Shown piece after piece: positions 3,223-43,330 of a DNA stretch of 60,432 bases. The notes beneath the pieces were generated by a model. The model saw only the letters and a list, made by a program, of their open reading frames with translations. It searched no databases and had not been told where the DNA came from. Numbering within the stretch: position 1 is the stretch's first letter; each line of letters begins with the position of its first letter. The translations under genes were made by a program, and so were the position numbers. The stretch is from an uncultured Bacilli bacterium (GTDB taxonomy: Bacteria > Bacillota_I > Bacilli_A > RFN20 > CAG-449). The stretch is taken from positions 1-60,432 of the forward strand of contig CALVJO010000005.1 of the NCBI GenBank assembly GCA_944332225.1. Direction: 5' to 3'.

Positions 3223-6200
3223 TTATTAAATAACTTGCCGTCTTTATAGATGATTTTTTGAGCGTCTATCATCGTTGATATGATGTTTTGAATTCTAAAA
3301 TATTGGCTATGGTTCATCTTTTTGTAGCCTAGAGAAACTAAGATTAATTTAATCATCTCATCCTGAGATAAAGGCTTAAAGATGGTGATCTGCTTAATTC
3401 CTGAAGAAATTTCTTCATTAGATACATTATCAAGCTCTCTTAAGGTTCCTTTAGGAGCCTTTTTAAAATGAATCTCTTTATTTTCTAAGAAGATGAAATT
3501 ATGTTCTATTGATATTATATTATCTTGCTCTAAAGACGAGACTAAGGAAGGATAATCATCTTTGAAGAGAAGATTGATTTCCTCAGTTTTAACAGGAGAT
3601 ACTTTCTCTAATACTTCTTTAAAGATTTCTAGCTTAGTTTTATTATCTTTATCCTTAATTTCGATTAAGGCTTGAGATGGAGTAAGATAATCAGAGAAAA
3701 TGATATCTATTAAAGGTTTTTTAACTTTTTTAGTTTTTATTTTTCTTTCTTGGACGGTATTTTTAATAATGAATTCTTTTAATTTTTGATATTGATTTTC
3801 TTCATCGAGGAAATAGAAGAAAGGAATTATATGATAATAGGCAAATTCTAGAGAATTTTCGATATAATCTTTGCCTTTTCCAAGAGAATTAATCGCTGAT
3901 TCAAGAGAGTTATAGGAGAGATGATCCACGATGATCGCAGTTGGACGTTTTGAGGAAGGAACCTTGACTAAAATATCAATAGAGCCTTTAGAAACTTGAT
4001 AATTGGTGATTAAATTAAATCCATCCTCTGTCAAGTGATTAGCTAAAGCTTTAATGAAGGTCTTATCAAAGTTGTTTGGAGATAAAACTTCCTCTAGATA
4101 CGCTTTAGAGCTGTAGAAAACATTATCATAAACTTTATAGATGTTAGATAAGAAACATTCACCTTGATATGGTAAAAGAGAATCAAAGTAATCTCTAGAT
4201 GGATCTTTATCGATGATTATGGTTTGAGAACCCCTAAATAAGGCTAAGATTCCTTCTAAGGTAGATTGATTTTTATCGACTAAAGAGAGAACTAAATCAA
4301 AGCTAGCTTCGTAAGATGAAAACATCTTAGATACATCTTTGATATTCGCTAAGAAAAGAGGCTTATTATAAGAGATAATTAAAGGAATGGATTTAATGAT
4401 TTCCTTATAAGGTAAGATTTTTATCTTATCGTCTAAAGCTGATTTAATATAAGGAAATTCAATGTTCTTTAAAGATAGTCCGATTTGCTTTTGACGGGAA
4501 ACTAGCTGAGATTGAATGATATCTTGAATGATTTCTCTTCTTTCCTTATCGAACTCTTCATAGGTAGCTATCTGATGGTTAAATCCATCTAAAGAGAAGG
4601 TTGACGAAAGCACATTAGAGTCATTTTCCTGATGAAGCTTTTGATAATATAAAGCTTTTAAGAAGGCCCCTGGATAACTTTCCTTTTGAGGTAGTTTCAA
4701 TAATTCATCCGCGAGATTAGGGATTAATTTATTTAATTTATTCGATGATAAATAGAAATCTAAATAATCATTAATCGAAGAGAAGTTTTTCGACATGTTA
4801 ATGATTCTAGTTTCAATAGATATTAAATTTAAATTGAAAAAGTTTAATTTATCTTCAAAGAAGAACTCTTTTAAATAATTTAAGGCTTCTAAGATATGAT
4901 TAAAGGCGATTTGGCATTGCTTTCTAGAATCGACGAATACTGTCATTGTCTCTTCATTAAAGTAATCTAAATAAGATGCATCATAATTAAACCCTTTAAA
5001 GTTTAAATAACGAACATTTTGGAAGAATTTATCGATAGTTTCGTAATCATCGATAAATTGATCGATATCATAATGATTATCTTTAATATAGTAAGAAAGA
5101 TCCTTGTTCTCATTTTCAAAGTTTTTAATATTTTCTTCTTCTTTATGGTAATCGTTTAGCGATGAAGCGACATCTAAGAGAATGCCTTCATCAATTTTGA
5201 TGGTTCGATCAAAGAATCCTCGATATTTTTTTATTAATTTTCCTTTAGAAAGAGTTTTTAAATCTTCGTTTAATGCTTTTTGATCTATAGATAGAACATT
5301 TTCTCCATAAAGGGAGATTAGTTTAGTTTTTGTTCCATTATATTCATCAATCGATTTATTAATTTTCTCTAATTCTAAAGATAGAGACTCTTTAATATTT
5401 TCTTTGATTATCGAAAGAGGAAGCTTTTTAATCATCTCAACGGTAGAAAGGATATTTAAAATAGCCTTCATATCTTTCATGTCATTTGGGAAAGGAATAT
5501 GATAGACCTTCTTTAAATTAGAATAGGCTTTTTTAAAAGGTTGGAATTCTCCTTCTAAAGAGATGATTTTATCTTTTAATTCAATATAACCTTCCTGAGT
5601 TAAATCAAGTCTTTTAAATCCGTAGAAAGGATGATCTAAATAATGACATTTTAATTTATCCGCGGTTTCTACAAATGATTTAATCGCTTTTAAATATCCA
5701 TCGATCTGCTCATTAGAAATATTAACAATATTAGGGATGGTAATATTTATTAAAGGTAGGCCATCTAAATTATAATAGTTAAATAATAATTGATTGATGG
5801 ATAAATTAAGAGGTGGATTAGCCATCCTTAAAGTGTTGATCAATCGAGAGTAGTTATTTTTAACTTGATAGAAGTTATCAACAGAAGAATCGATTTGGCT
5901 AGGGCTGAACCGTTCTTTAAAATTATCTAAAAGAGTCAAAGATGAAAGTAGTTTCTTCTTGTCGCTTGAAGAAGATAAATCGATAACATATCTATTTAAT
6001 GAAGATTCATTTAATATAGAAAGAATCTCTTCTCGATCATTATCATCTTGATAGGTTAATAAAATGTTTTGATTATTTAATAGATAATGAAGCAAGATGT
6101 TATTAAGCAAGTGATCTCTAGTCTCTTTTGAGGAAGGTTTAATAGCTAGATTTTCTCTTAAGGATAATCTTTTCAAGATTTTATATTCATCATTTTCTAA

Positions 6201-6983
6201 GTTTAATAAAGATAGGAAAGAGTTATTTAATCTAGCCCCTTTGACTTTTTTAAAATTATAAAATTCCGAGTTAAAATAAGAGATTTGCTTGATGATATCT
6301 AAAGAAGATAATTCATCTTGATGCTTAATTAAATCGTTAAGATAATAATATTTATCAACATCTAAACTAGCAAAAAAGCATCCGTTATTGACTGAGAAAT
6401 GTAATGATTTAACTCTTGTTGCTACGTAAGTTAGATATTCATATAAAGAAAAATTATTTTCTAAAGGGTAGGAAATATCTAAATTTAAGGTGTTTTGAAA
6501 ATAAGAAATCAAGCATTCATTAAGATATAATTCATGATTGATATTAGATATTTGATAATGATCAGTTTCATTGATGTACTCTAGTTTAATAGGCATTAAG
6601 ACTAAAGGAGCTGAGATGATTTTCATGTTTTTATCAATGAAATAATCGATTAAGCCAAAAGTTAAATATAATTTATTGTCCTTAATCAATAAGGAAAGCT
6701 TTTTATTTTGAACTTGATAATCCTCCGCGGTGTAAAAACCAATTTTATTTTCTTGAGAATTGATCTGTTCCTTCTCTAAAAGAGCTTGATACAGGGTTTT
6801 ATTAGTTAATTCAAGATTTTCAATCTCAAAAGTTTTACCTTCCATCAATAAATTAAAGATTGAGGTATAATCAGAGGTTGCTAGTCTTAAAGGAGAAGGA
6901 TTGTTATAAAAAAAATCTAAAAGGTTAGATTTAGTTAATTGTTCCTTTAACTTTCGTTGATAAATTTCAATTTTGTTATTCAT
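3219..6983 (-). CDS. degenerate DUF4011-type SF1 helicase with lost ATPase motifs
   Basis: This 1254-residue protein keeps the layout of large DUF4011/DUF3320 SF1 helicases. There is an N-terminal RNRLL-like segment (LTKSNLLDFF, residues 16-25), the family hallmark APLVLMPIKLE (125-135), a RecA-like core, a C-terminal Vsr/restriction-like fold (about 960-1050, with GSIDILV) and a final winged-helix segment. Manual alignment places PSSKETRD (283-290) where GPPGTGKS should be, SLVDKNQ (about 899-905) where the DEASQ box should be, and IIIDKDPSR where VVGDxxQLPP should be. ATP hydrolysis is therefore not expected. The frame is intact over 3.7 kb, so the protein is probably kept for a non-catalytic role. 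It is shorter than most active relatives. I cannot name its function. Confidence 0.7.
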   Translation of the reverse strand: MNNKIEIYQRKLKEQLTKSNLLDFFYNNPSPLRLATSDYTSIFNLLMEGKTFEIENLELTNKTLYQALLEKEQINSQENKIGFYTAEDYQVQNKKLSLLIKDNKLYLTFGLIDYFIDKNMKIISAPLVLMPIKLEYINETDHYQISNINHELYLNECLISYFQNTLNLDISYPLENNFSLYEYLTYVATRVKSLHFSVNNGCFFASLDVDKYYYLNDLIKHQDELSSLDIIKQISYFNSEFYNFKKVKGARLNNSFLSLLNLENDEYKILKRLSLRENLAIKPSSKETRDHLLNNILLHYLLNNQNILLTYQDDNDREEILSILNESSLNRYVIDLSSSSDKKKLLSSLTLLDNFKERFSPSQIDSSVDNFYQVKNNYSRLINTLRMANPPLNLSINQLLFNYYNLDGLPLINITIPNIVNISNEQIDGYLKAIKSFVETADKLKCHYLDHPFYGFKRLDLTQEGYIELKDKIISLEGEFQPFKKAYSNLKKVYHIPFPNDMKDMKAILNILSTVEMIKKLPLSIIKENIKESLSLELEKINKSIDEYNGTKTKLISLYGENVLSIDQKALNEDLKTLSKGKLIKKYRGFFDRTIKIDEGILLDVASSLNDYHKEEENIKNFENENKDLSYYIKDNHYDIDQFIDDYETIDKFFQNVRYLNFKGFNYDASYLDYFNEETMTVFVDSRKQCQIAFNHILEALNYLKEFFFEDKLNFFNLNLISIETRIINMSKNFSSINDYLDFYLSSNKLNKLIPNLADELLKLPQKESYPGAFLKALYYQKLHQENDSNVLSSTFSLDGFNHQIATYEEFDKERREIIQDIIQSQLVSRQKQIGLSLKNIEFPYIKSALDDKIKILPYKEIIKSIPLIISYNKPLFLANIKDVSKMFSSYEASFDLVLSLVDKNQSTLEGILALFRGSQTIIIDKDPSRDYFDSLLPYQGECFLSNIYKVYDNVFYSSKAYLEEVLSPNNFDKTFIKALANHLTEDGFNLITNYQVSKGSIDILVKVPSSKRPTAIIVDHLSYNSLESAINSLGKGKDYIENSLEFAYYHIIPFFYFLDEENQYQKLKEFIIKNTVQERKIKTKKVKKPLIDIIFSDYLTPSQALIEIKDKDNKTKLEIFKEVLEKVSPVKTEEINLLFKDDYPSLVSSLEQDNIISIEHNFIFLENKEIHFKKAPKGTLRELDNVSNEEISSGIKQITIFKPLSQDEMIKLILVSLGYKKMNHSQYFRIQNIISTMIDAQKIIYKDGKLFNN

Positions 6984-7045
6984 AAAAAGAGTATAGCACG
7001 TTTTAAAAAAATTATTAATAAAGTAAGCGTTAATATCGATGCATT

Positions 7046-7474
7046 TTAAGGATAGTCATAACCTCCATTTGGCTCCTTGCATCTTTTAAGTCGATTTATT
7101 CCCTTTTTCATTCCTTTGATTAAACCATATTTATTGATGGCTAATTTCATATAATCTGAGCAAGATGGTTCAAACCTGCAGCGCATTCTTATCTTTTTAG
7201 GTGCGAGAAGCTGATATAGATCAAGAAAAAACAAAATTAAAGATTTCATTCTTATAATTAAAATAAGGATAGATAATAAGATAGGAATTAATATGGTTAA
7301 AAGTAAATTATTAGAATAAAACCATATTAAAAAAGTGATTAAGGAGATAGAAAGTAGATATAAAATTAAATGAAGGAAAACCCTAAGCCAATTGACTTTA
7401 GGATAGGTTAGTTTTCTATCATAAAGAATCGACTTAGGGTCTTTTTTAGGATCTAAATTTAAATTATTATTCAT
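7046..7474 (-). CDS. yidD: YidD membrane protein insertion efficiency factor, extended N-terminus
   Basis: YidD is a small membrane-associated protein that assists YidC-dependent insertion. The signature is at the C-terminus: RCRFEPSCSDYMKLAINKYG, then RLKRCKEPNGGYDYP, matching RCRFxPTCSxY and GGYDPVP. Family members are usually 70-100 residues; this one has 142, with about 65 extra residues including two hydrophobic helices. The start was set at 7474 because the ATG overlaps the upstream stop as ATGAATAA. A longer frame runs back through the upstream gene but would fully overlap it. Coupling to the DUF4177 gene is likely. Confidence 0.85.
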   Translation of the reverse strand: MNNNLNLDPKKDPKSILYDRKLTYPKVNWLRVFLHLILYLLSISLITFLIWFYSNNLLLTILIPILLSILILIIRMKSLILFFLDLYQLLAPKKIRMRCRFEPSCSDYMKLAINKYGLIKGMKKGINRLKRCKEPNGGYDYP

Positions 7475-11798: not shown

Positions 11799-11819
11799 AT
11801 GATAGGTTTGGGTAAGGGT

Positions 11820-14534
11820 ATGAGAAAACAATTAAAAATATTTATCGCTTCATCGATAGTTGAATTTGCTTCTACGCGGGATGATATTGAAAATTATCTA
11901 TGGAAATATCGAGATAAAAATAATTTTGATGTCATTCCGATTAGATGTGAAACTTCTGAGCCATCCATGAGCGTCACTAGAAAAGAAGATGATTATTGCT
12001 CGCTGATTTTTCAAAGCGACGTTTGTCTTTTTCTATTTTCTAAAAATCTAGGAAAGTATTCTTTAGAAGAATATGAATACTCTAAAGAGATAGTTAAAAG
12101 AAATCATAATCTTAAAATAATCGTTTTCTTTGAAGGAGATTATTTATCTTCTTTTAAAAATCAAGTTATCGAAGATGGATTCGAAACATATGATTTAAAT
12201 GAAAATGAAGATATTTATCGAGTCTTAGATATTTTCATTAAAGAAAACGGAAAAAGAATAGAAGAACAATCCTCATCTTTAATTAATATTTTCTTTGCTT
12301 CCTCGATAGATGATGATGTTCAAGAGAGAATCAAAATCGAAAATTTTATTTATAAGATGAACTATGAATTCGTTAATTCATATAATATCTCAATAAGACC
12401 ATTGCTTACTCATGAAGGTGATCTTCAATCATTGATCATCAAAAGTAAAATGTGCTTTTTCATAATCTTTAAAAAGGTGGAAAAAGAAGTTAAAGATGAA
12501 TTAGATTTTGCTAAACAGTATTTTGATAAGACTGGTTTACCTAAGATATATGTATACTTTAACTCGATTGCAGATTCTACTAGCGAAGAAAAATCAGTTA
12601 TCGATTTTAAAGAATATTTAGATAAACAATTGAATCATTTCTATGGCACGTTTAATGGTATCGATACCATTAAACTAAGAATTTTATTGAATTTAGCTAT
12701 TCAAGAAACTGGTTCTAAGCAAGTGATATTTAAAAATGGTAAATGCTATTTAAATGATGATGCTTTGATATCTATCGACCAAGTTTCTGAATTTAAGAAT
12801 AATCAAAAGCTTATAGAATTTAAGCAGGAATTAAATGATTTAGATGAACGTTACCATGTTTTGAAAAAAGCTTATGAATCAGATCGGATGAATGAGGCTT
12901 TAGGTGAGGAATATTATAATGTTGCGACTAGATACTTATCTTTAAAAAATAAAATTGAAAAGTTAGAAGAAAGCATTTTTAACATCACTTTAAGTTTATC
13001 TAACGATGAAGTTAAAGAAACTCTCAGCGTTCGTCAAAAAAGAGCCTACCGTTACTTTGAAGAAGGTAATGTTGAATTAGCTGTTGAATTATTAGATGTT
13101 GACGAGACTTTAAAATCATATGAATCTTTATCTAATATCACAAAGATGAAAGCAAGAGAAGTCATCAGCGAAGGTCGCTTAAAAATAGATTTTTTAAAGA
13201 CCATGTATCAATATAAAAATCGTTATGAGACGATTGAGGATACTTATAAAAAAATATTGTCGGTTGCTTTATCTAGTCAGGTAGAATTAAATATCTACGA
13301 TGAATATGCTTTATTTTTACTAAGTAGAGAAAGACATAATGAAGCGATTAATCAAGCCTACACATTGATGTCTTTTTATTCTCTTTTCCCTCATTTAGCG
13401 ACTCTTGAAGCTAAAAGCGACAATTATTTAGTTTTAGCGACCATCTATAATAAGATGTCAGATCATCAAGAAGAGACTAAAAAATATTCTTTAGAAGCTT
13501 TAAATATTAAAGAAAAGATCTATGAAGATAATAAAGATGATGAGAAAAATAACTATGGAATAAGTCAAATTTGTCTAGCTTTAGGAAATATCTATCGAAG
13601 AGAGCAAAAAGCTCTTCTCGCGGAATCTTATCTTTCTAAAGGTGAAGCTTTATTGCTTGATTTATCTCTTATTTCTAAAAAATACTTGCTAGATTTATCT
13701 AGGATACTAATTATAAAAGGACAAAATTATTTTGATAGGTTTAAAGGTGATGAAGCTTTATCTTGCTACAAAAGAGCTGAAGAATGCATGTTAAAACTAC
13801 CTTTAGATAATCCTGAAGAAAAATATCAATTATCATCCTGTTATCAGAATTCTGGAGCCTTATTTAGAAAGCTATGCAAAAAGGAAGAAGCTTTAAAAAT
13901 GTTCACAAAATCTAGAGATATTCGTCTTAAACTTGCCGATGATGATCCAATTTCCTTTCTTCCAACTCTAGCCTATTCTTATCAAGGGGTAGGAAACGCC
14001 TTAAGATCTTTAGATAGAAAAGATGAGGCTTTAGATAGTTATTTTCACGCCTATAAAATAAGAAAAATGATCTCTAAGAAGAATCCTAATGTTCACGATG
14101 CAGAGATGAGCGATTCAGCTATGAAGATTGCTTCAGTTTATTTAGATAAAAAAGATCCAGATTCAGCCTATCCTTACGTAAAAGAAACTTTAAGTTTAAG
14201 AGAAAGACTTTATAAAATAAGTAACGATACCTACTTCAAATGGTACGCGCAGTCGATATTTGAACTAGGCCGTTATCATGAAGAAAAAAACAATATAGAA
14301 GAAGCTAAACAAAATTATCTTGAAAGCCTTCATATTCAAACTTCAAAAGACATTGATATTCCAACAAACGCGGAAGCTTTACATCTAATTTTTAAAAAGC
14401 TTAAAGAAATATATAAAGAAGATTTTTTAAAAGTCTTATCTCCTAAAGAAAAAGAAGTTCATGATGACTTATATTCATATAACGATAAACATCCTGACAA
14501 TAAGATAGTTTTTGATCCTCTTTATCAAGATTAA
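11820..14534 (+). CDS. tandem DUF4062/TIR-like domains fused to TPR repeats
   Basis: This cytosolic protein of about 904 residues opens with KIFIASSIVEFASTRDDIENYL, which resembles the iFiSSTfxDlxxER start of DUF4062 (a Rossmann/TIR-like fold), and continues with FQSDVCLFLFSKNLG. A second copy of the same fold starts with INIFFASSIDDDVQERIKIENFIY about 160 residues in. A helical linker (about 330-420) leads to tetratricopeptide-type repeats (e.g. YLVLATIYNKMSDHQEETKKYSLEAL, SYQGVGNALRSLDRKDEALDSY) up to near the end. DUF4062-TPR arrangements resemble signalling or immune NTPase-less scaffolds; no STAND ATPase is seen here. ATG 11820 is preferred over 11799 because the domain then starts at residue 5. 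The effector activity is unknown. Confidence 0.65.
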   Translation: MRKQLKIFIASSIVEFASTRDDIENYLWKYRDKNNFDVIPIRCETSEPSMSVTRKEDDYCSLIFQSDVCLFLFSKNLGKYSLEEYEYSKEIVKRNHNLKIIVFFEGDYLSSFKNQVIEDGFETYDLNENEDIYRVLDIFIKENGKRIEEQSSSLINIFFASSIDDDVQERIKIENFIYKMNYEFVNSYNISIRPLLTHEGDLQSLIIKSKMCFFIIFKKVEKEVKDELDFAKQYFDKTGLPKIYVYFNSIADSTSEEKSVIDFKEYLDKQLNHFYGTFNGIDTIKLRILLNLAIQETGSKQVIFKNGKCYLNDDALISIDQVSEFKNNQKLIEFKQELNDLDERYHVLKKAYESDRMNEALGEEYYNVATRYLSLKNKIEKLEESIFNITLSLSNDEVKETLSVRQKRAYRYFEEGNVELAVELLDVDETLKSYESLSNITKMKAREVISEGRLKIDFLKTMYQYKNRYETIEDTYKKILSVALSSQVELNIYDEYALFLLSRERHNEAINQAYTLMSFYSLFPHLATLEAKSDNYLVLATIYNKMSDHQEETKKYSLEALNIKEKIYEDNKDDEKNNYGISQICLALGNIYRREQKALLAESYLSKGEALLLDLSLISKKYLLDLSRILIIKGQNYFDRFKGDEALSCYKRAEECMLKLPLDNPEEKYQLSSCYQNSGALFRKLCKKEEALKMFTKSRDIRLKLADDDPISFLPTLAYSYQGVGNALRSLDRKDEALDSYFHAYKIRKMISKKNPNVHDAEMSDSAMKIASVYLDKKDPDSAYPYVKETLSLRERLYKISNDTYFKWYAQSIFELGRYHEEKNNIEEAKQNYLESLHIQTSKDIDIPTNAEALHLIFKKLKEIYKEDFLKVLSPKEKEVHDDLYSYNDKHPDNKIVFDPLYQD

Positions 14535-32102: not shown

Positions 32103-33767
32103 TTATTTATTCTCTATTCTTATAAATTTATGATAGTTAGTTAAATCAGATTCAACCCGTTTAAAAGCTGAACTAACTTTGATTTTTTGGCTTGTTAAAT
32201 AGATAGTATCTAACGTAGGAATAACTTCATCAATATAGGTTAGTCTCTTGCTGTTTTTAATTTTATTTTCAATAACTATAAGTTTCTTTGTATTAATAAT
32301 TGCTGTTTTAAGATTTAGACAATCATTAAAAGAACTAGATGACAAATGAATCTCTTTAGGATGCTTTAGTTCAATTTTTTGAAGGCTGCTACAACCATAA
32401 AAAGCATCTTTATCTATCAAAGAAACATCATTTAATACTAAGCTTTCAAGGCTCTTTAAATTTGAAAATGCCTCGGTTTCTATAGTTAGATTTTTTGCTT
32501 CGTCGATAATGTTTTTTATCTTTATACAATTTTTAAAGGCTTGGGGATAGATGCATTTTAATCCATTTGGTAAATTGATTGATTCTAAACTTTTACAATT
32601 ATAGAACGCGCGATATCTAATGGAATAGCAGTTATCAGGTATGGTGAAATTAATCAAATTTTGGCAGTTAGCTAGAGCCTCATCTTGAATTATTTCTAAA
32701 CTGTTAACGATAATAGTTTTTAAATTAGGAGAATCTTTAAAAAGAAAGAAAGCATCGTCCCCTTTTTCAAATTCAATAGTTTCAAGATATTCACTTTTAC
32801 CGATTAGGGATACATTATTAGGCACGAATAGATATTTTAAGTTGATGCAGTTATTAAACGCGGACATTTCTATTCTCCCGTTTTCCGTCTTAGCTAGATT
32901 TACTTTAGTTAAATTAACGCAGTTATAGAAGGCGTAGTCTTGAATGTATTTCCAGTTTATAGGCAAGCTAATTTCTTCAAGAAAACGAAAATTAGCAAAC
33001 GAACCAACTCCAATTCCTGAAACAGGTTTTGTCTCACCTTTAATTTTAATATTTTGAGGTATAGAAACCTTTTTGATTGATATATCTCGACAATAAGATA
33101 ATAAATATTCATTATTTTCATCGCCCATAGAATCATCTTTTGAGTATTTAAATAATTTTGGAGAAGGAATATTTTTGATTTGCTCCTTAATCTCATCAAG
33201 CGAAGTATTTGAAATCTCCAAAAGGACTTTTGATTTAATTGATAATATTGATTTTAAAAATATTTTTTCATCTAAAGAAATATTTAAAGAATTATATATT
33301 TCATCGGTGACCTCAGCTTCTTTTAAAAGCTTTGGGGAGATATCTTTATTATTAGAAAAGAAGCTATCGATAACTATAAAAAATGGTTCAATATCAGGTA
33401 ATGAGATGATTAATGATGACTTTTTATATTTTGAGGATAAATTGTATTCCTTATTTAAGGAATCAGAATGCAAGCAGTTTTTACTTACAAAATAAATTAT
33501 TCCTTTGCACGAAAAAGAATAAACCTTCTTTTTTACAAATTTAATCCAACTTTCTCCGTTTTCTAAGCCCCTGTCATACCAAAGATTAATTCCTGATTCG
33601 AGAAGCTTTAAGATGTAAGGAAAGACCACTTTATAATCTTTATGAGAATAGGAAATAAAATAATAGCCTTCATCGCTGTTAGGATCTGGCATGATTCCTT
33701 GCTTTTGGACTTCTTCTAATGATTTAGAATTTAGAATGAAATTAATTTTATCTTGTAATGTATCCAT
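32103..33767 (-). CDS. TIR-LRR protein
   Basis: A 554-residue protein without signal peptide. After a 35-residue extension comes a TIR domain (YFISYSHKDYKVVFPYILKLL, INLWYDRGLENGESW, KGIIYFVSKNCLHSDSLNKEY); Glu107 aligns with the catalytic Glu of NAD-cleaving TIRs. Leucine-rich repeats of the BspA/LRR_5 type fill about 245-500, with units such as YAFYNCVNLTKVNLA, RAFYNCKSLESINLP and DAFYGCSSLQKIELK. LRR_5 repeats are mostly known from surface proteins, but here they should be cytosolic. It lies 33 nt after the GNAT gene and 1 nt before its paralogue. A role in sensing and NAD depletion is inference from TIR biology. Confidence 0.82.
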   Translation of the reverse strand: MDTLQDKINFILNSKSLEEVQKQGIMPDPNSDEGYYFISYSHKDYKVVFPYILKLLESGINLWYDRGLENGESWIKFVKKKVYSFSCKGIIYFVSKNCLHSDSLNKEYNLSSKYKKSSLIISLPDIEPFFIVIDSFFSNNKDISPKLLKEAEVTDEIYNSLNISLDEKIFLKSILSIKSKVLLEISNTSLDEIKEQIKNIPSPKLFKYSKDDSMGDENNEYLLSYCRDISIKKVSIPQNIKIKGETKPVSGIGVGSFANFRFLEEISLPINWKYIQDYAFYNCVNLTKVNLAKTENGRIEMSAFNNCINLKYLFVPNNVSLIGKSEYLETIEFEKGDDAFFLFKDSPNLKTIIVNSLEIIQDEALANCQNLINFTIPDNCYSIRYRAFYNCKSLESINLPNGLKCIYPQAFKNCIKIKNIIDEAKNLTIETEAFSNLKSLESLVLNDVSLIDKDAFYGCSSLQKIELKHPKEIHLSSSSFNDCLNLKTAIINTKKLIVIENKIKNSKRLTYIDEVIPTLDTIYLTSQKIKVSSAFKRVESDLTNYHKFIRIENK

Positions 33768-33799
33768 CTTTTTAAGTAATTATATCCCATATTTTTTAG

Positions 33800-34897
33800 T
33801 TAAAATAAGTCACTTTTATTAAAAGAGAAAAAGAAATGAAGAGAATTTAAATCATATAAAGATTCTAATGATAAGATATAACGATTAAATTCCATCATAG
33901 AAGCAAATGTTTTAATTGGATTTTCGCTTGTTTTAGAAATATCGATAGAATCATTATTTATCTTTATTAGAAGTCGTTCATCACCTATTTGATAAACATA
34001 AGTTTTGTTTTCAAAAGTCATGATATTTTTATTGATTGAGAAGAGAAATTTTAAAAATTCAATCTCATCATAGACTTTAATTAATAAATCATCTTGAAGA
34101 GAGATATTCTCACTTAATAATGAAAATTTATAAAATAAATCACGATCTAAAGAAGAGACTGATATTGTTAATTCTTTATTAAAATAATTAAATATAGATT
34201 TAATAATTAAAGGTAATTTATCTATATCAAATATAACAAATTCATCAATATTATCTAAATGTTCTTTTTTGGTGAAGTAGCCATAGACTTTATCATTTTG
34301 CTTTAAAATATAAGGTTTTCTTCTCCCACCTATTAATGATTTATAGAAATCATCTTTAGTTTTAAGCTTATATAAATCCTGCTTTAAATATTGAGAATAT
34401 AAAGCTTCAATATCATCATCTGATTCCTGTAATTCAAGGCATGAAATCTCGGTTTTTAAAGGTAATCTTTTATTTAGAATCGTGAAATTATAATCATAAC
34501 CAACTTTTTCATAACCAAAGTGATTATATCTTGTTCTATCTCCAGTTAAGATAGAGAAAATAACCTTCTGAGAAACATTCTCAGAGTTAATATTTTTCAT
34601 CAATAAAGACATATAGCCCCGATTTTGATATTCTTTTAAAGTCGCGATTGAGCCAACAAAAGAAACTAGATAAGGTTTATCTAGATTAATCTCTTTTAAA
34701 ATATTCCCTCCGACTGAGACCATTTTTTGATCTTCAATGATGCAGAAGTGAGATGGAGAATAGTCAATTTTAGAACTATAGATTTTAGCCATATTGATTC
34801 TAAAATCAAATTCAGGATATCTTACTTCTTTAAACGCGGAGTTCGCGCAGGAGAGGATTTGATTTAGTTCTCCTTTTTTACATTTTCTTATGTTCAT
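33800..34897 (-). CDS. GNAT-family N-acetyltransferase
   Basis: About 365 residues. The N-terminal half is a GNAT fold: IRKCKKGELNQILSCANSAF, then FVGSIATLKEYQNRGYMSLLM with the QxxGxx acetyl-CoA loop (QNRGYM), then GDRTRYNHFGYEKVG, as in Eis-like acetyltransferases. The C-terminal half is a sterol-carrier-like or second GNAT-like region without clear motifs. ATG 34897 is chosen over 34912 because GAGGA lies 8 nt before it, inside the end of the TIR-STAND-LRR gene, which it overlaps by 20 nt. It may modify a partner or a small molecule in the same system; the target is unknown. Confidence 0.75.
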   Translation of the reverse strand: MNIRKCKKGELNQILSCANSAFKEVRYPEFDFRINMAKIYSSKIDYSPSHFCIIEDQKMVSVGGNILKEINLDKPYLVSFVGSIATLKEYQNRGYMSLLMKNINSENVSQKVIFSILTGDRTRYNHFGYEKVGYDYNFTILNKRLPLKTEISCLELQESDDDIEALYSQYLKQDLYKLKTKDDFYKSLIGGRRKPYILKQNDKVYGYFTKKEHLDNIDEFVIFDIDKLPLIIKSIFNYFNKELTISVSSLDRDLFYKFSLLSENISLQDDLLIKVYDEIEFLKFLFSINKNIMTFENKTYVYQIGDERLLIKINNDSIDISKTSENPIKTFASMMEFNRYILSLESLYDLNSLHFFFSFNKSDLF

Positions 34898-37800
34898 TAT
34901 AGGCGTCCTCATATATCTTTAATAATTTTTTACTTCCGCTGATGAAGCCATCAGGGCTTCTAATAATAGTTACTTCATGATTGAATAACTCATTTATTTT
35001 AGGTAAATCTCTTAAAATAGCAAACATTTTAACATGCGTGTTATCTACAAGATCACTTATGTATTTTTTAAGCTCATCGTCTTGAAAATTATTAAGCTTA
35101 TTGTATTCATCTAATCCAATTAAGCAAATGTTATAATCATCTTTTTCGATTCGAACCTGGGAAAGAATCTCTTTATTATTCCTAAATAAGTTTATCTTCT
35201 TATAAAGAACGTCATCATCTACTTTCTTTAAGATGGTAAATTCGCTGCTTTTTTCAATTAAACTTAAATCAATTTTAGTTTTATTCTTGAATTCAAAGGA
35301 TAAGCTTTTAACGTTTTGTTTATTAAACTTGGTATGGAAATCGTTAATGGTTAATAGCTTAATATCATCAAATTGATCGATATATTTAATAGTTAAACCT
35401 GGATAGGAAGATAAGAATAAATAATTTTTATAAGTGATTTTAGTTAAATCTAATTCCCCAAAATCGATATTTTGAATTGATTCCATGTCAGCAAAAGCGT
35501 AGGAACCGATCTCTTTAATTGAAGAATTTAATTTAACGTTATTGATAAATTGACATGTAGAAAGAGAGTCTCCTCCAATTATTGAGACCATCGGATCGAT
35601 AACGATGTCTCCTTTGATTCCAGGAGGCATTCTAAATAAGGTAATCGATGATGAATCTTTAGAATACAATATTCCATCTTTCGTGAAGTATTTAGGATTG
35701 TTTTCAATAAAATACTTCGTTAATATTGGGCAAAAATCTGTGAAGTCAGATGAGATATCTTCAATTTCATCCGGTAAGATTAATTCTTCAATATTTTGAT
35801 TATAGGCTAATGAATGATCTTTAATTTCCTTTATTTCTTTAGGCAAGATCACTCTTCCTTTTAAAGCAGGGACTCCAATATTTAAAATTAATTTATTGTT
35901 TGGACCTTTTGAACAAAGCAGCTGATTATTTAATAATGAGACAAAGTTTTCATTATTTTTAGCTATCTTTATTTCTTTTAATTCATTACAGAATCTAAAT
36001 AATGGATGGTTAAAAACTTTATAGTTATTTCCTATATAGATAGTTTCTAAATTTGGACAGGAGATAAAACAAAATGCTGAAATCTTTAATTCATCCGTTG
36101 AGGAAATTAAATATGCTTTCTTTAATCGAGTCATCTTAGAAAATGACGCGTGAGATATATATTCACATGAAGCAGGGATTTTAATTATTTCTATATTCTC
36201 ACATGAGGCAAAAGCCATCTCAGGAATATAATATAGCTGTAAATTAGTTAAAATTTCATTTTGAATTTCTTCTTCTCGATATAGAGATAATTTATAAATT
36301 AATAAAGTTAAATTTGGATAAGTATTTTGATTTATTAAATTTTTATCAAAGTTTTGTTGGTTACCATTAATTAAGTCAAAAAATAAATCATCTTTGCTTA
36401 ATAGTTTTAATAAAGAATATTTTTCTAAGATATTTGAAGAAAAGTCATCTAATTCGTTTAATTTATCTACCCAATTTATTTTTTTATCTACGATAGAATT
36501 TATTTCTTCTTTAACATATTTATAGAGAAGATAAGTTTTAATTTCGTCGACTATATAGTATTCGTCTCCATCGTTTTGTAAGACTCCATAGGTCACTAGA
36601 AGATCTTTAAATAATAAGTTAGATATTTGTCCATATTCGCTTTTATACGCGCATTTACCGAGGGTTTTAAACTCTTCTAATAATTCTTTTTTGATTAAAG
36701 AGCTGATATCTAAATATTTATTATTAAATAAGGATGAAATTTGATTAATTAAAGATATTTCTCCTCCTGATTCTAAAAGAAGGGAGAAGATTTCTAATTC
36801 ATTTTGAACTAATATTTCTTTTAAGAAAGATTCATTGTTATTAAGTAATTTAATTAACAAATTAATCTTAGAATAAGATGAGAAAAATTTAAAAAACCTA
36901 TCATCTTCCGTTAGATTATTGATTTGATTAATGATATTTGGTGATACTTTACAAAATTTTAAATAGGCGAGAATTTTATTTTTATTAAGAGATAATATCT
37001 CCGCGTATGTTTCTTCCATTTTCTTAGAAATATCTAGGGCTAAAGACTTATTTACATATCTTTTTCTTGAGAAAAATACGATTTCAAAACTAGATTTTAA
37101 ATCGTCTATCTCATTTAAAATTATCTGTTTAAGATTACTAGCTACATAATCAAAATTATCTAATAACAAACATATTTTTTGATGATAGGAAGAATAGGTA
37201 GCTAAATCATCAAAGTTAAATCCGATGGTGTTAGGAAAGTTTAATGAAAAAGCGTTTTGAATAAGATTTTCGTCACTTGAGGATAATGAAGCAATCTTGC
37301 TTAAATCAATATAGAGAGAATATTGATTATTCAAATAATAATTAATTAAAAGATATGAGGTTCCTGAACCTTCTGATCCAAAGATATTAATTGGGAAATT
37401 ATGATTGATTAATTTTTCTAATGACGATGAATTCTCATCTGAAAGATAAACTTGATCCTTATCATCTTTTAAATCAGGTAAAGACGAAGTCATAATCTCT
37501 TTTTTAAAGAAGAAAGATTTAAAATAGATATGATTGATTATTAAGCATGATGAGGTGACTTGATATAGATAATAATTATTTTGATTAATTGATTTAATTA
37601 AGATATTTAAAAAGTATTTAAACCCGTTAATTAAATCATATGTTTCATAATAAATTTTATTAATATCAGAAGAATTATTATAGATATCATTTAATTTTTC
37701 GTTGATGTATATAACGGTTTGATTGATAAATTCTTGATTATCTTTAGTTTTATAATGAGTTAAAAGATGGTCTTTTAAAACTGAATTAACATTAAGAGAA

Positions 37801-38522
37801 GAAGGAAGAGAAAGTAAATAAGAATCACTTCGATATCCCATCAAATCGTTTAAGATATTTTTTATAAATATAGAATTAGCTTCTAAGTTTAAGTTATTTG
37901 AAAAAGGCTCATCGTTAATAAAGGCAAAACTTTTCGTTCTTGGATCGATAAATAAGGTCGAAAAATCAGCTTTAGATGATAGATATTCATTTTGATCTTG
38001 CTTAGCTAAAAGATAAGAAAGCAAATTGATAAATAAAGATAGAAAATTTTCATAGCTAGGAACTAGAGATCCTTTTCCAATATAATTTAAAAATGGAATT
38101 CCATTATTTTCATTAACATCAGAAAAAGTAGTTAATTTACAAGACGGAAAATCATCATGAGAAGTGACGATTTCTATAAACTCATCATAGCTCATAGCCA
38201 CTTGAATCTTAGAAAATTTCTCAGCGAGGCTGAGATTATGAGTTAACTTATCTAAATCGATAACATAGATTTTTTTCTTACGATCAGTTGCATCATCATA
38301 TTCTTTTTGACAATATTCAGAATAGCGATAGTTATTGCTGACAAAAGCGATGAAAATCGTGCATGAAGCAATCGCGCAACGGATGTGCGCGTCCCAAAAG
38401 TCTCCAGATTTTAAATCTTTTTTATCATAAAAATATAGATATCTCTTTTCTTTTAAATAGTTCACATATGGTTCGACTAATAGATAGTCTTTATGTGAGT
38501 AAGATATAAATATAGACCCCAT
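34878..38522 (-). CDS. TIR-STAND NTPase-LRR protein (NLR-like)
   Basis: A 1214-residue cytosolic protein. Residues 1-95 are a TIR domain (SIFISYSHKDYLLVEPYV, FYDKKDLKSGDFWD, SNNYRYSEYCQKEY) with the likely catalytic Glu74. Residues 130-345 are unassigned. A STAND/NACHT-like NTPase starts near 360: the P-loop is GSEGSGTS (382-389), with Thr388 replacing the usual Lys; Walker B is CLLLDNFD (451-458) and the sensor strand is IVFFSRKR (481-488). A helical region follows to about 750, then BspA-like LRRs (MAFASCENIEIIKIP, SYAFADMESIQNIDF), then a 150-residue tail. The order is that of plant TIR-NB-LRR receptors. It heads an operon with a GNAT and two TIR-LRR proteins. An immune-sensor role is inferred. 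Confidence 0.78.
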   Translation of the reverse strand: MGSIFISYSHKDYLLVEPYVNYLKEKRYLYFYDKKDLKSGDFWDAHIRCAIASCTIFIAFVSNNYRYSEYCQKEYDDATDRKKKIYVIDLDKLTHNLSLAEKFSKIQVAMSYDEFIEIVTSHDDFPSCKLTTFSDVNENNGIPFLNYIGKGSLVPSYENFLSLFINLLSYLLAKQDQNEYLSSKADFSTLFIDPRTKSFAFINDEPFSNNLNLEANSIFIKNILNDLMGYRSDSYLLSLPSSLNVNSVLKDHLLTHYKTKDNQEFINQTVIYINEKLNDIYNNSSDINKIYYETYDLINGFKYFLNILIKSINQNNYYLYQVTSSCLIINHIYFKSFFFKKEIMTSSLPDLKDDKDQVYLSDENSSSLEKLINHNFPINIFGSEGSGTSYLLINYYLNNQYSLYIDLSKIASLSSSDENLIQNAFSLNFPNTIGFNFDDLATYSSYHQKICLLLDNFDYVASNLKQIILNEIDDLKSSFEIVFFSRKRYVNKSLALDISKKMEETYAEILSLNKNKILAYLKFCKVSPNIINQINNLTEDDRFFKFFSSYSKINLLIKLLNNNESFLKEILVQNELEIFSLLLESGGEISLINQISSLFNNKYLDISSLIKKELLEEFKTLGKCAYKSEYGQISNLLFKDLLVTYGVLQNDGDEYYIVDEIKTYLLYKYVKEEINSIVDKKINWVDKLNELDDFSSNILEKYSLLKLLSKDDLFFDLINGNQQNFDKNLINQNTYPNLTLLIYKLSLYREEEIQNEILTNLQLYYIPEMAFASCENIEIIKIPASCEYISHASFSKMTRLKKAYLISSTDELKISAFCFISCPNLETIYIGNNYKVFNHPLFRFCNELKEIKIAKNNENFVSLLNNQLLCSKGPNNKLILNIGVPALKGRVILPKEIKEIKDHSLAYNQNIEELILPDEIEDISSDFTDFCPILTKYFIENNPKYFTKDGILYSKDSSSITLFRMPPGIKGDIVIDPMVSIIGGDSLSTCQFINNVKLNSSIKEIGSYAFADMESIQNIDFGELDLTKITYKNYLFLSSYPGLTIKYIDQFDDIKLLTINDFHTKFNKQNVKSLSFEFKNKTKIDLSLIEKSSEFTILKKVDDDVLYKKINLFRNNKEILSQVRIEKDDYNICLIGLDEYNKLNNFQDDELKKYISDLVDNTHVKMFAILRDLPKINELFNHEVTIIRSPDGFISGSKKLLKIYEDAYNEHKKM

Positions 38523-42485: not shown

Positions 42486-42544
42486 ATTTTGTTTTTCTAA
42501 GTGATTACAAGTTCATAATTATTTTTGTTTTAACTTATAGATGG

Positions 42545-42664
42545 TATAATTAAATTAGATTTTTGATTTAAAGAGCTTGCTAAAATAGTAAGTAACATAA
42601 TTCAATCCTATTTATAAGATGGGAGGGATAGTACCTATAGGATTGAAGAAAACTGAAGGTACTA
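42545..42664 (+). promoter_or_regulatory. promoter and structured leader with pseudoknot topology, SIMPL gene
   Basis: An extended -10 (TGG TATAAT, hexamer 42545-42550) should give a leader of about 110 nt. The leader holds a hairpin CTTGCTA/TAGTAAG (42576-42582 and 42586-42592). Next, TTCAATCCTAT (42601-42611) pairs perfectly with ATAGGATTGAA (42637-42647). A second stem, TAGTACCT (42629-42636) with AGGTACTA (42657-42664), has its first arm in the loop of the previous stem and its second arm after it, which is an H-type pseudoknot. The second stem covers the ribosome site (GAAGG, 42655-42659). This looks like a translational switch. I do not recognise a known riboswitch class. Confidence 0.6.
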
Positions 42665-42670
42665 AAAAAT

Positions 42671-43330
42671 ATGGACAGACTTTTAAAAATTAATGGATAT
42701 GGAAAAATTAATGTTAAAGCAGATCAAATGAATCTAATTTTTACTATGAAGGGAGTTGATGATGCTTATCAAAATGTTTTGCTTAAATCAACTATAATGC
42801 ATGAAACATTACTTCAAAATTTAAAAAAATTAGGCATTGAGGAAAGCAATATCATCACTGAAAGTTTCGATATCTCCCAAAACATGATTAATGTGTTGAT
42901 CGATGGCAAAAATAAAACTGTGCAAGATGGATATAAATTTTATGAAAGGATCAAGGTAAGCTTTCCTTTCGATAACTATAAATTAAATGAGATTCTTCAA
43001 ATGTTAAATGATTCTAGATTTTATACTGATTTTTCAATAGGCTACTCTTTACAAAATCCAGATAAATATCATTCTCTTGCCTTAGAAAAAGCAATTGAAA
43101 ATGTTAAAAACGTAGCCTCTACCATATCAAAAAAATTTGGGATGGAATTAGATAATATAGCTTCAATAAAATATGGAATTCACGATTATAACACAGATTT
43201 AATAGTTCCAGCAGGAGTTAGATTAATGTCTAGCAATAAAGCTAGTTCAAAAGAAATTGGAAAAGTAAATCTAGTTTCTAAGGATATTGTTATCGATGAA
43301 TATATAGAGGTTGAATATTTTATTAAATAA
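42671..43330 (+). CDS. SIMPL-domain (DUF541) protein
   Basis: A 219-residue protein of the SIMPL/DUF541 family. The features are KINGYGKINVKADQMNLIFTMKG at the start, YQNVLLKS, the FDISQNM segment, and a C-terminal strand set (NVASTISKKFGMELDNIASIKYG). Many relatives are periplasmic or surface oligomers, but no signal peptide is present here, so this copy should be cytosolic. The family's molecular role is unclear. The start lies 11 nt after a GAAGG ribosome site that is buried in the leader pseudoknot, so expression is probably controlled at translation. Confidence 0.8.
   Translation: MDRLLKINGYGKINVKADQMNLIFTMKGVDDAYQNVLLKSTIMHETLLQNLKKLGIEESNIITESFDISQNMINVLIDGKNKTVQDGYKFYERIKVSFPFDNYKLNEILQMLNDSRFYTDFSIGYSLQNPDKYHSLALEKAIENVKNVASTISKKFGMELDNIASIKYGIHDYNTDLIVPAGVRLMSSNKASSKEIGKVNLVSKDIVIDEYIEVEYFIK

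Follow-up and report, generated by a model that had tools for sequence, protein, structure and literature searches.

A perfect pseudoknot before a SIMPL gene is probably a mobile-element end lodged in a ribosome-binding site

The SIMPL (DUF541) gene analysed here is preceded by two perfect, interleaved RNA stems, which raises the question of what such a fold does at a start codon and how it came to be there. The locus lies in a 60,432-nt stretch of DNA from an uncultured Bacilli bacterium, referred to below as the window. An earlier note described an 11-bp stem 1 (TTCAATCCTAT/ATAGGATTGAA) and an 8-bp stem 2 (TAGTACCT/AGGTACTA) with zero bases between the first arm of stem 2 and the second arm of stem 1, a third hairpin further upstream and an extended −10 element; all are present at the positions collected in Table 1. 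Interleaved stems of at least 10 + 7 bp occur once in the 60 kb when both strands are searched. Order-1 Markov sequence yields just five raw matches in 6 Mb, a count in which one pseudoknot can score up to three times; the Markov expectation is ~0.05 raw matches per window strand against three observed, which are sub-registers of a single pseudoknot. The weaker interleaved stems inspected in the window (9 + 6 bp and below) lie within coding sequence or at a gene end and were set aside. The leader is a structured RNA at a translation start, and nested folds compete with the pseudoknot.

Table 1. Parts of the SIMPL leader and gene in the window, with the evidence for each
Feature	Position	Strand	Evidence or remark
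Extended −10 promoter element TGGTATAAT, host leader 5′ of the insertion	42542..42550	+	Consensus match only
AAGAG, remnant of the native SIMPL Shine-Dalgarno, left junction	42571..42575	+	Genus-mates uninterrupted (AAGAGGTAAAAATATGG); joined flanks align better
89-nt short copy of the mobile element, left to right end	42576..42664	+	Right end 83% identical to four other copies; left end weakly similar to that of the full-size element
Left-end hairpin CTTGCTA-AAA-TAGTAAG	42576..42592	+	Sequence; full-size copies begin with an ACTAT-TAA-ATAGT hairpin
Stem 1, first arm	42601..42611	+	11 bp, perfect; covariation
GGAGG, the element's own Shine-Dalgarno, loop 1, 2 nt 5′ of stem 2	42622..42626	+	Kept in 7/7 copies
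Stem 2, first arm	42629..42636	+	8 bp, perfect
Stem 1, second arm	42637..42647	+	Pairs with 42601-42611
GAAGG, weaker second Shine-Dalgarno, window copy only	42655..42659	+	Pairs with the 16S tail at −4.0 kcal/mol
Stem 2, second arm = last bases of the element	42657..42664	+	Pairs with 42629-42636
AAAAAT, native spacer before the start codon	42665..42670	+	Identical spacer in genus-mates
SIMPL (DUF541) gene	42671..43330	+	Pfam PF04402, E 3.4e-17

The leader had been matched to no known class, in agreement with an Rfam 15 search that returned nothing for it at the gathering threshold and, at a relaxed E-value, only a non-significant match to JA01 (E = 10). The proposal that the fold hides the ribosome site fits the window copy, in which stem 2 overlaps GAAGG, but not for the other copies, whose Shine-Dalgarno (SD) sequence is outside the helices. 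Even in the window, loop 1 contains a stronger SD, GGGAGGG (42621–42627), than the GAAGG touched by stem 2, and the GGAGG within it is conserved in all other copies.

The genome contains five copies of the structure, located before metK, cysS, the cyclase gene of a Pycsar pair (pycC with its PycTM effector), a small lipoprotein gene and the SIMPL gene. All five are in the sense orientation and end 6–10 nt before the ATG. The four other copies are 81–84% identical to the window copy and about 97–100% identical among themselves. These carriers form no metabolic regulon, and control by SAM or a T-box, which metK and cysS might suggest, was rejected: no such motif is present and the other carriers are unrelated. 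In two genus-mates the SIMPL start has a plain AAAGAGGTAAAAATATGG or AAGAGGTAAAAATATGG and no pseudoknot. The Pycsar anti-phage cassette (L086, G000:C48, 1619–2936) lies directly behind a full-size copy.

The origin of the structure is best seen at metK and cysS. The termini of all 48 contigs were read, and the assembly has exact 77-nt overlaps between contig ends. Three copies lie at contig termini, as the right ends C17e (metK), C27e (cysS) and C48e (pycC), and the matching left ends C40s, C47e and C29s all read ...GGAG followed directly by CTAACTATTAAATAGTCAACAAATACAG. In a genus-mate, the orthologue of the C40s neighbour gene (72% identity) stands 5′ of metK and that of the C47e neighbour gene (64%) stands 5′ of cysS; C29s and C48e are paired by exclusion. 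The orthologous left neighbours and the matched contig ends thus place a repeated element between the neighbour gene (tsi3-like) and metK, and likewise between mntP and cysS. At these two loci it is at least about 130 nt long, with an interior that is not assembled. Rejoining the flanks yields ordinary ribosome-binding sites (RBSs), GGAG-TAATAT-ATG, AAGGAG-TTTTCTT-ATG and AAGGAG-GCACGATGT-ATG, with strengths of −5.9, −8.7 and −11.1 kcal/mol, compared with only −2.9 within 22 nt of the present ATGs; at metK the rejoined TAA additionally closes the upstream reading frame. The genus-mates have uninterrupted plain RBSs at cysS, SIMPL and metK. These ends and flanks identify the metK, cysS and pycC copies as the right-hand termini of a single repeated mobile element, and the contig ends with their neighbour genes show it at metK and cysS inserted between SD and start codon, in the order (A)GGAG, element, spacer and ATG. 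An invertible promoter was considered and rejected, the contig breaks being explained by k = 77 repeat ends. About 20 repeat families account for most contig ends of this genome (G000, L113–L210), among them ends in CGGTGAATAGTAAC or CGAAGTATTTACAAAATAGTTGG; insertion sequences are abundant in it and break up its assembly.

The window locus has a corresponding layout, AAAGAG, 89 nt and then AAAAATATGG, compared with the AAAGAGGTAAAAATATGG of a genus-mate, and the joined flanks align better than the present sequence does (51 versus 44). The left end bears a weak likeness to that of the full-size element (132/5000 shuffles). Mainly by analogy, then, the 89-nt window copy is taken as a short, internally deleted, MITE-like derivative of the mobile element. 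The copy before the lipoprotein gene looks like a shorter deletion form, again recognised as an insertion mainly by analogy. The SIMPL gene would accordingly have its pseudoknot because a mobile element inserted into its RBS.

Insertion at SD sequences would exceed what the supply of targets in the window predicts. SDs account for 11 of the 122 AGGAG sites in the window (9%) and for 6 of the 18 intergenic ones (33%), so that five of five insertions at SDs would arise by chance with p of about 6e-6 overall and 0.004 among intergenic sites. This bias may mean that insertions elsewhere were lost, or that SD sites are tolerated through repair by the element itself.

Beyond this genome the copies are sporadic. 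The two genus-mates have none, nor do nearly all members of the family, of the order and of a sample of the class. In one family member (G012) the region 5′ of metK (L043, about 1300–1500) resembles by eye a SAM-I (S-box) riboswitch, which points to the usual metK control in that organism. A covariance model recovered a single genuine distant copy, in an Erysipelotrichaceae MAG of rumen type (L052, the same locus as L079), and a core pattern recovered another, in a Clostridia MAG from the abomasum of roe deer (L073); the latter is interrupted by other insertion sequences and has no ATG. Covariance-model matches L053, L054 and L084 look like coding sequence. An exact-core scan with a first pattern gave no match in viral or genome contig collections. 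With the second core pattern, three matches in viral contigs lack the fold and are read as chance, and 2 of 16 in genome contigs are real (the two distant copies above), the two stems being absent by eye from the remainder. The left-end pattern has no match in viral contigs, and blastn against phage and plasmid sequences gave chance matches only. In L079 (minus strand, 4176–5006) the gene behind the rumen copy is apparently broken by stops and has only a weak Dabb match in its C-terminal part. The roe deer locus contains a remnant of a Mutator/IS256-type transposase just 3′ of the pseudoknot (6003–6809) and a long palindrome, TTGACAATAGGACTTGCAAGTCCTATTGTCAA (7025–7054), that separates the pseudoknot from an IS110-type transposase gene.

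The distant copies allow the fold to be assessed. The loop anchors TATTTATT and GGAGGTAATAGTAC are retained in L052, whose stem 1 is different (TTCCCT/GGGGAA) and still pairs, so that covariation supports the fold. Five stem 1 pairs are changed on both sides, which 1 of 500 shuffles reaches; this is a single evolutionary contrast from an alignment fitted to stem 1, L052 and L073 being near relatives in that stem. The seventh pair of stem 2 is C-G in the own genome and U-A in L052 and L073, and L052 has one G-U pair. Between the window copy and its paralogues there are no differences in 34 paired columns and 12–13 in 42 others (Fisher p about 2–4e-4). The covariation check proposed for the leader supports stem 1 between copies of the element and has no counterpart among homologous SIMPL genes, the genus-mates having no such leader. 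GGAGG lies 2–3 nt 5′ of stem 2 in 7/7 copies, and in L052 and L073 its region reads AAGGAGGT, a full complement of the usual 16S tail. In L002–L004 (metK- and cysS-type copies) the UACC of stem 2 can also pair with the GGUA of the SD (AGGUA-AUAG-UACCU), forming an alternative SD-occluding hairpin; this hairpin is weak or absent in L052 and L073, and a switch, if any, may therefore be confined to the own genome.

These constraints bear on how the interrupted genes are translated. Both metK and cysS are generally essential, each has one full-length copy in the genome, and at each the insertion has moved the native SD far from the ATG. There is no other SD near the ATG in any copy apart from the window GAAGG: elsewhere the second arm of stem 2 contains no real SD, and the only good one is GGAGG in loop 1, beside stem 2. 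The fold would therefore bring the SD towards the start codon, and it most likely restores rather than hides the ribosome site. We lean towards a reading in which the fold bridges the GGAGG of the element to the ATG, the leader being a copy of a mobile element, probably IS607-like, that landed in the SD core (A)GGAG. In this mechanism, landing would part the native SD from the start codon; the right end of the element would form an H-type pseudoknot flush with the element end; and, with stem 2 stacked on stem 1, roughly 40–50 nt between GGAGG and ATG would be folded away. The remaining through-structure spacing, calculated as 8–13 nt in the six copies that have an ATG, should let ribosomes still initiate on the interrupted gene. 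The window copy has its additional GAAGG near the ATG, so SIMPL may use either site. Initiation without an SD may also occur at metK and cysS, since an SD 4-mer is missing from 12 of the 29 window genes that were checked. A precedent is provided by the split RBSs of T4 genes 25 and 38, whose translation needs a structure that shortens the SD–AUG distance from 27 to 11 and from 22 to 5 nt, respectively (PMC3014915). There, as proposed here, structure between SD and AUG gives a distant SD a functional spacing; the T4 structures are simple hairpins in fixed genes, whereas here the structure is a mobile-element-end pseudoknot before unrelated genes (PMC3014915).

The junctions indicate the kind of element. 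There are no terminal inverted repeats (left CTAACTATTAAATAG and inward right end CTAGTACCATATATT have only CTA in common) and no target duplication, grounds on which a DDE transposon was rejected; an integron attC site was rejected because its stems are not interleaved. AG is present at both junctions: the metK, cysS and pycC copies have AG at the left and a right end TACTAG, and the window copy ends in TACTAA. Together, these features fit exchange by a serine recombinase of the IS607 type, in which strands are exchanged over two identical bases, although these are GG in IS607 itself (PMC6188088). The target is, by its sequence, a sharper clue to IS607 kinship than these exchange features. 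The left junctions read AGGAG at cysS and pycC, TGGAG at metK and AAGAG in the window, and the IS607 TnpBs associated with RAGATH-18 have the target-adjacent motif 5′-AGGAG in 18/22 strains (PMC11061315). The element, known here from its ends alone with its interior not assembled, is probably IS607-like. Elements of the ISFba1 type, with a RAGATH-18 reRNA, share with it the AGGAG left junction of the cysS and pycC copies, the lack of inverted repeats and target duplication, a right-end pseudoknot formed by the last bases, and a home in gut Firmicutes (PMC11061315). The present right end differs in having neither RAGATH-18 nor intervening stem-loops, in its short 89-nt copies and perhaps in the SD carried 5′ of the end pseudoknot, and neither tnpA nor tnpB is seen in the assembled ends. 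RAGATH-18 was absent from the terminal 77 nt and from the short copies in the Rfam search, and a TnpB pattern search of the examined loci found none. With the intervening stems missing and the interior not assembled, membership in the IS607 TnpB group is therefore likely, not shown.

The same kinship provides the strongest competing explanation, that the pseudoknot does no more than terminate a TnpB guide RNA (omega/re) at its 3′ end. In such RNAs the bases just before the guide pair with a hairpin loop (PMC10097598, PMC11061315); the AGGAG target would account for the placement at start codons, and the pseudoknot would have no part in translating the host gene. The AGGAG motif and end pseudoknot of IS607 reRNAs (PMC11061315) speak for this, as does the formation of stem 2 by the last bases of the element. 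In the omegaRNA of ISDra2, likewise, a hairpin loop pairs with bases adjoining the transposon end and the pseudoknot stacks coaxially on stem 1 (PMC10097598), but additional stems within about 80 nt intervene there, against 10 nt here. With neither intervening stems nor RAGATH-18 between hairpin and end, and with both the GGAGG beside stem 2 in all copies and the translation of metK and cysS left unexplained, we regard a guide RNA end as a sufficient account to be unlikely, though a serious contender. On the bridging reading, the full-length element may in addition use, or once have used, this pseudoknot as the end of a TnpB guide RNA.

An intron reading is improbable. In it, a self-splicing group I intron or IStron would make up the full-size element between SD and ATG, splicing would rejoin the RBS, and the short copies would be remnants. 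Splicing-built RBSs have precedents, insertion falls exactly between SD and spacer before essential genes, and the final base is G in every copy except that of the window. However, neither group I nor group II introns matched in searches of the ends, the last base of the left flank is G rather than U, and the short copies retain the pseudoknot though unable to splice.

The translational riboswitch of SIMPL that the earlier note had proposed, in which ligand binding would let the pseudoknot occlude the ribosome site, is more improbable still: an H-type pseudoknot at a start codon, two carriers in sulfur amino acid metabolism (metK and cysS) and alternative SD-occluding hairpins in some copies favour it, but its distribution is sporadic, the orthologous metK, cysS and SIMPL leaders of genus-mates do not have it, and the carriers are unrelated and the junctions those of a mobile element. 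Translational riboswitches of the preQ1 and SAM-II types do place an H-type pseudoknot at the translation start; the present leader differs from them in having no Rfam match, no coherent regulon and no conservation with its gene, and in an SD that stays outside the helices when the pseudoknot is folded.

More tentatively, and close to an even call, these copies could represent a mobile-element family in which SD landing sites and a terminal pseudoknot with its own SD keep the interrupted gene translated, a structural repair of the RBS unlike intron splicing. If so, mobile elements would have, in addition to self-splicing, another way of lying between a gene and its RBS without silencing it: the element would supply an RBS folded so that its own length is bypassed. 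The SD core would then be tied to the AGGAG target motif published for IS607 TnpBs, a link not made in the paper describing that motif, which mentions neither the ribosome nor Shine-Dalgarno (PMC11061315). Isolated 'orphan riboswitches' at start codons would also call for caution, as they can be transposon ends.

Elsewhere in the window (32103–38522 and 11799–14534), several large proteins look by eye as if TIR-like or similar N-terminal domains, with the motif FISYSHKDY, were followed by repeats of a leucine-rich-like or tetratricopeptide-like kind.
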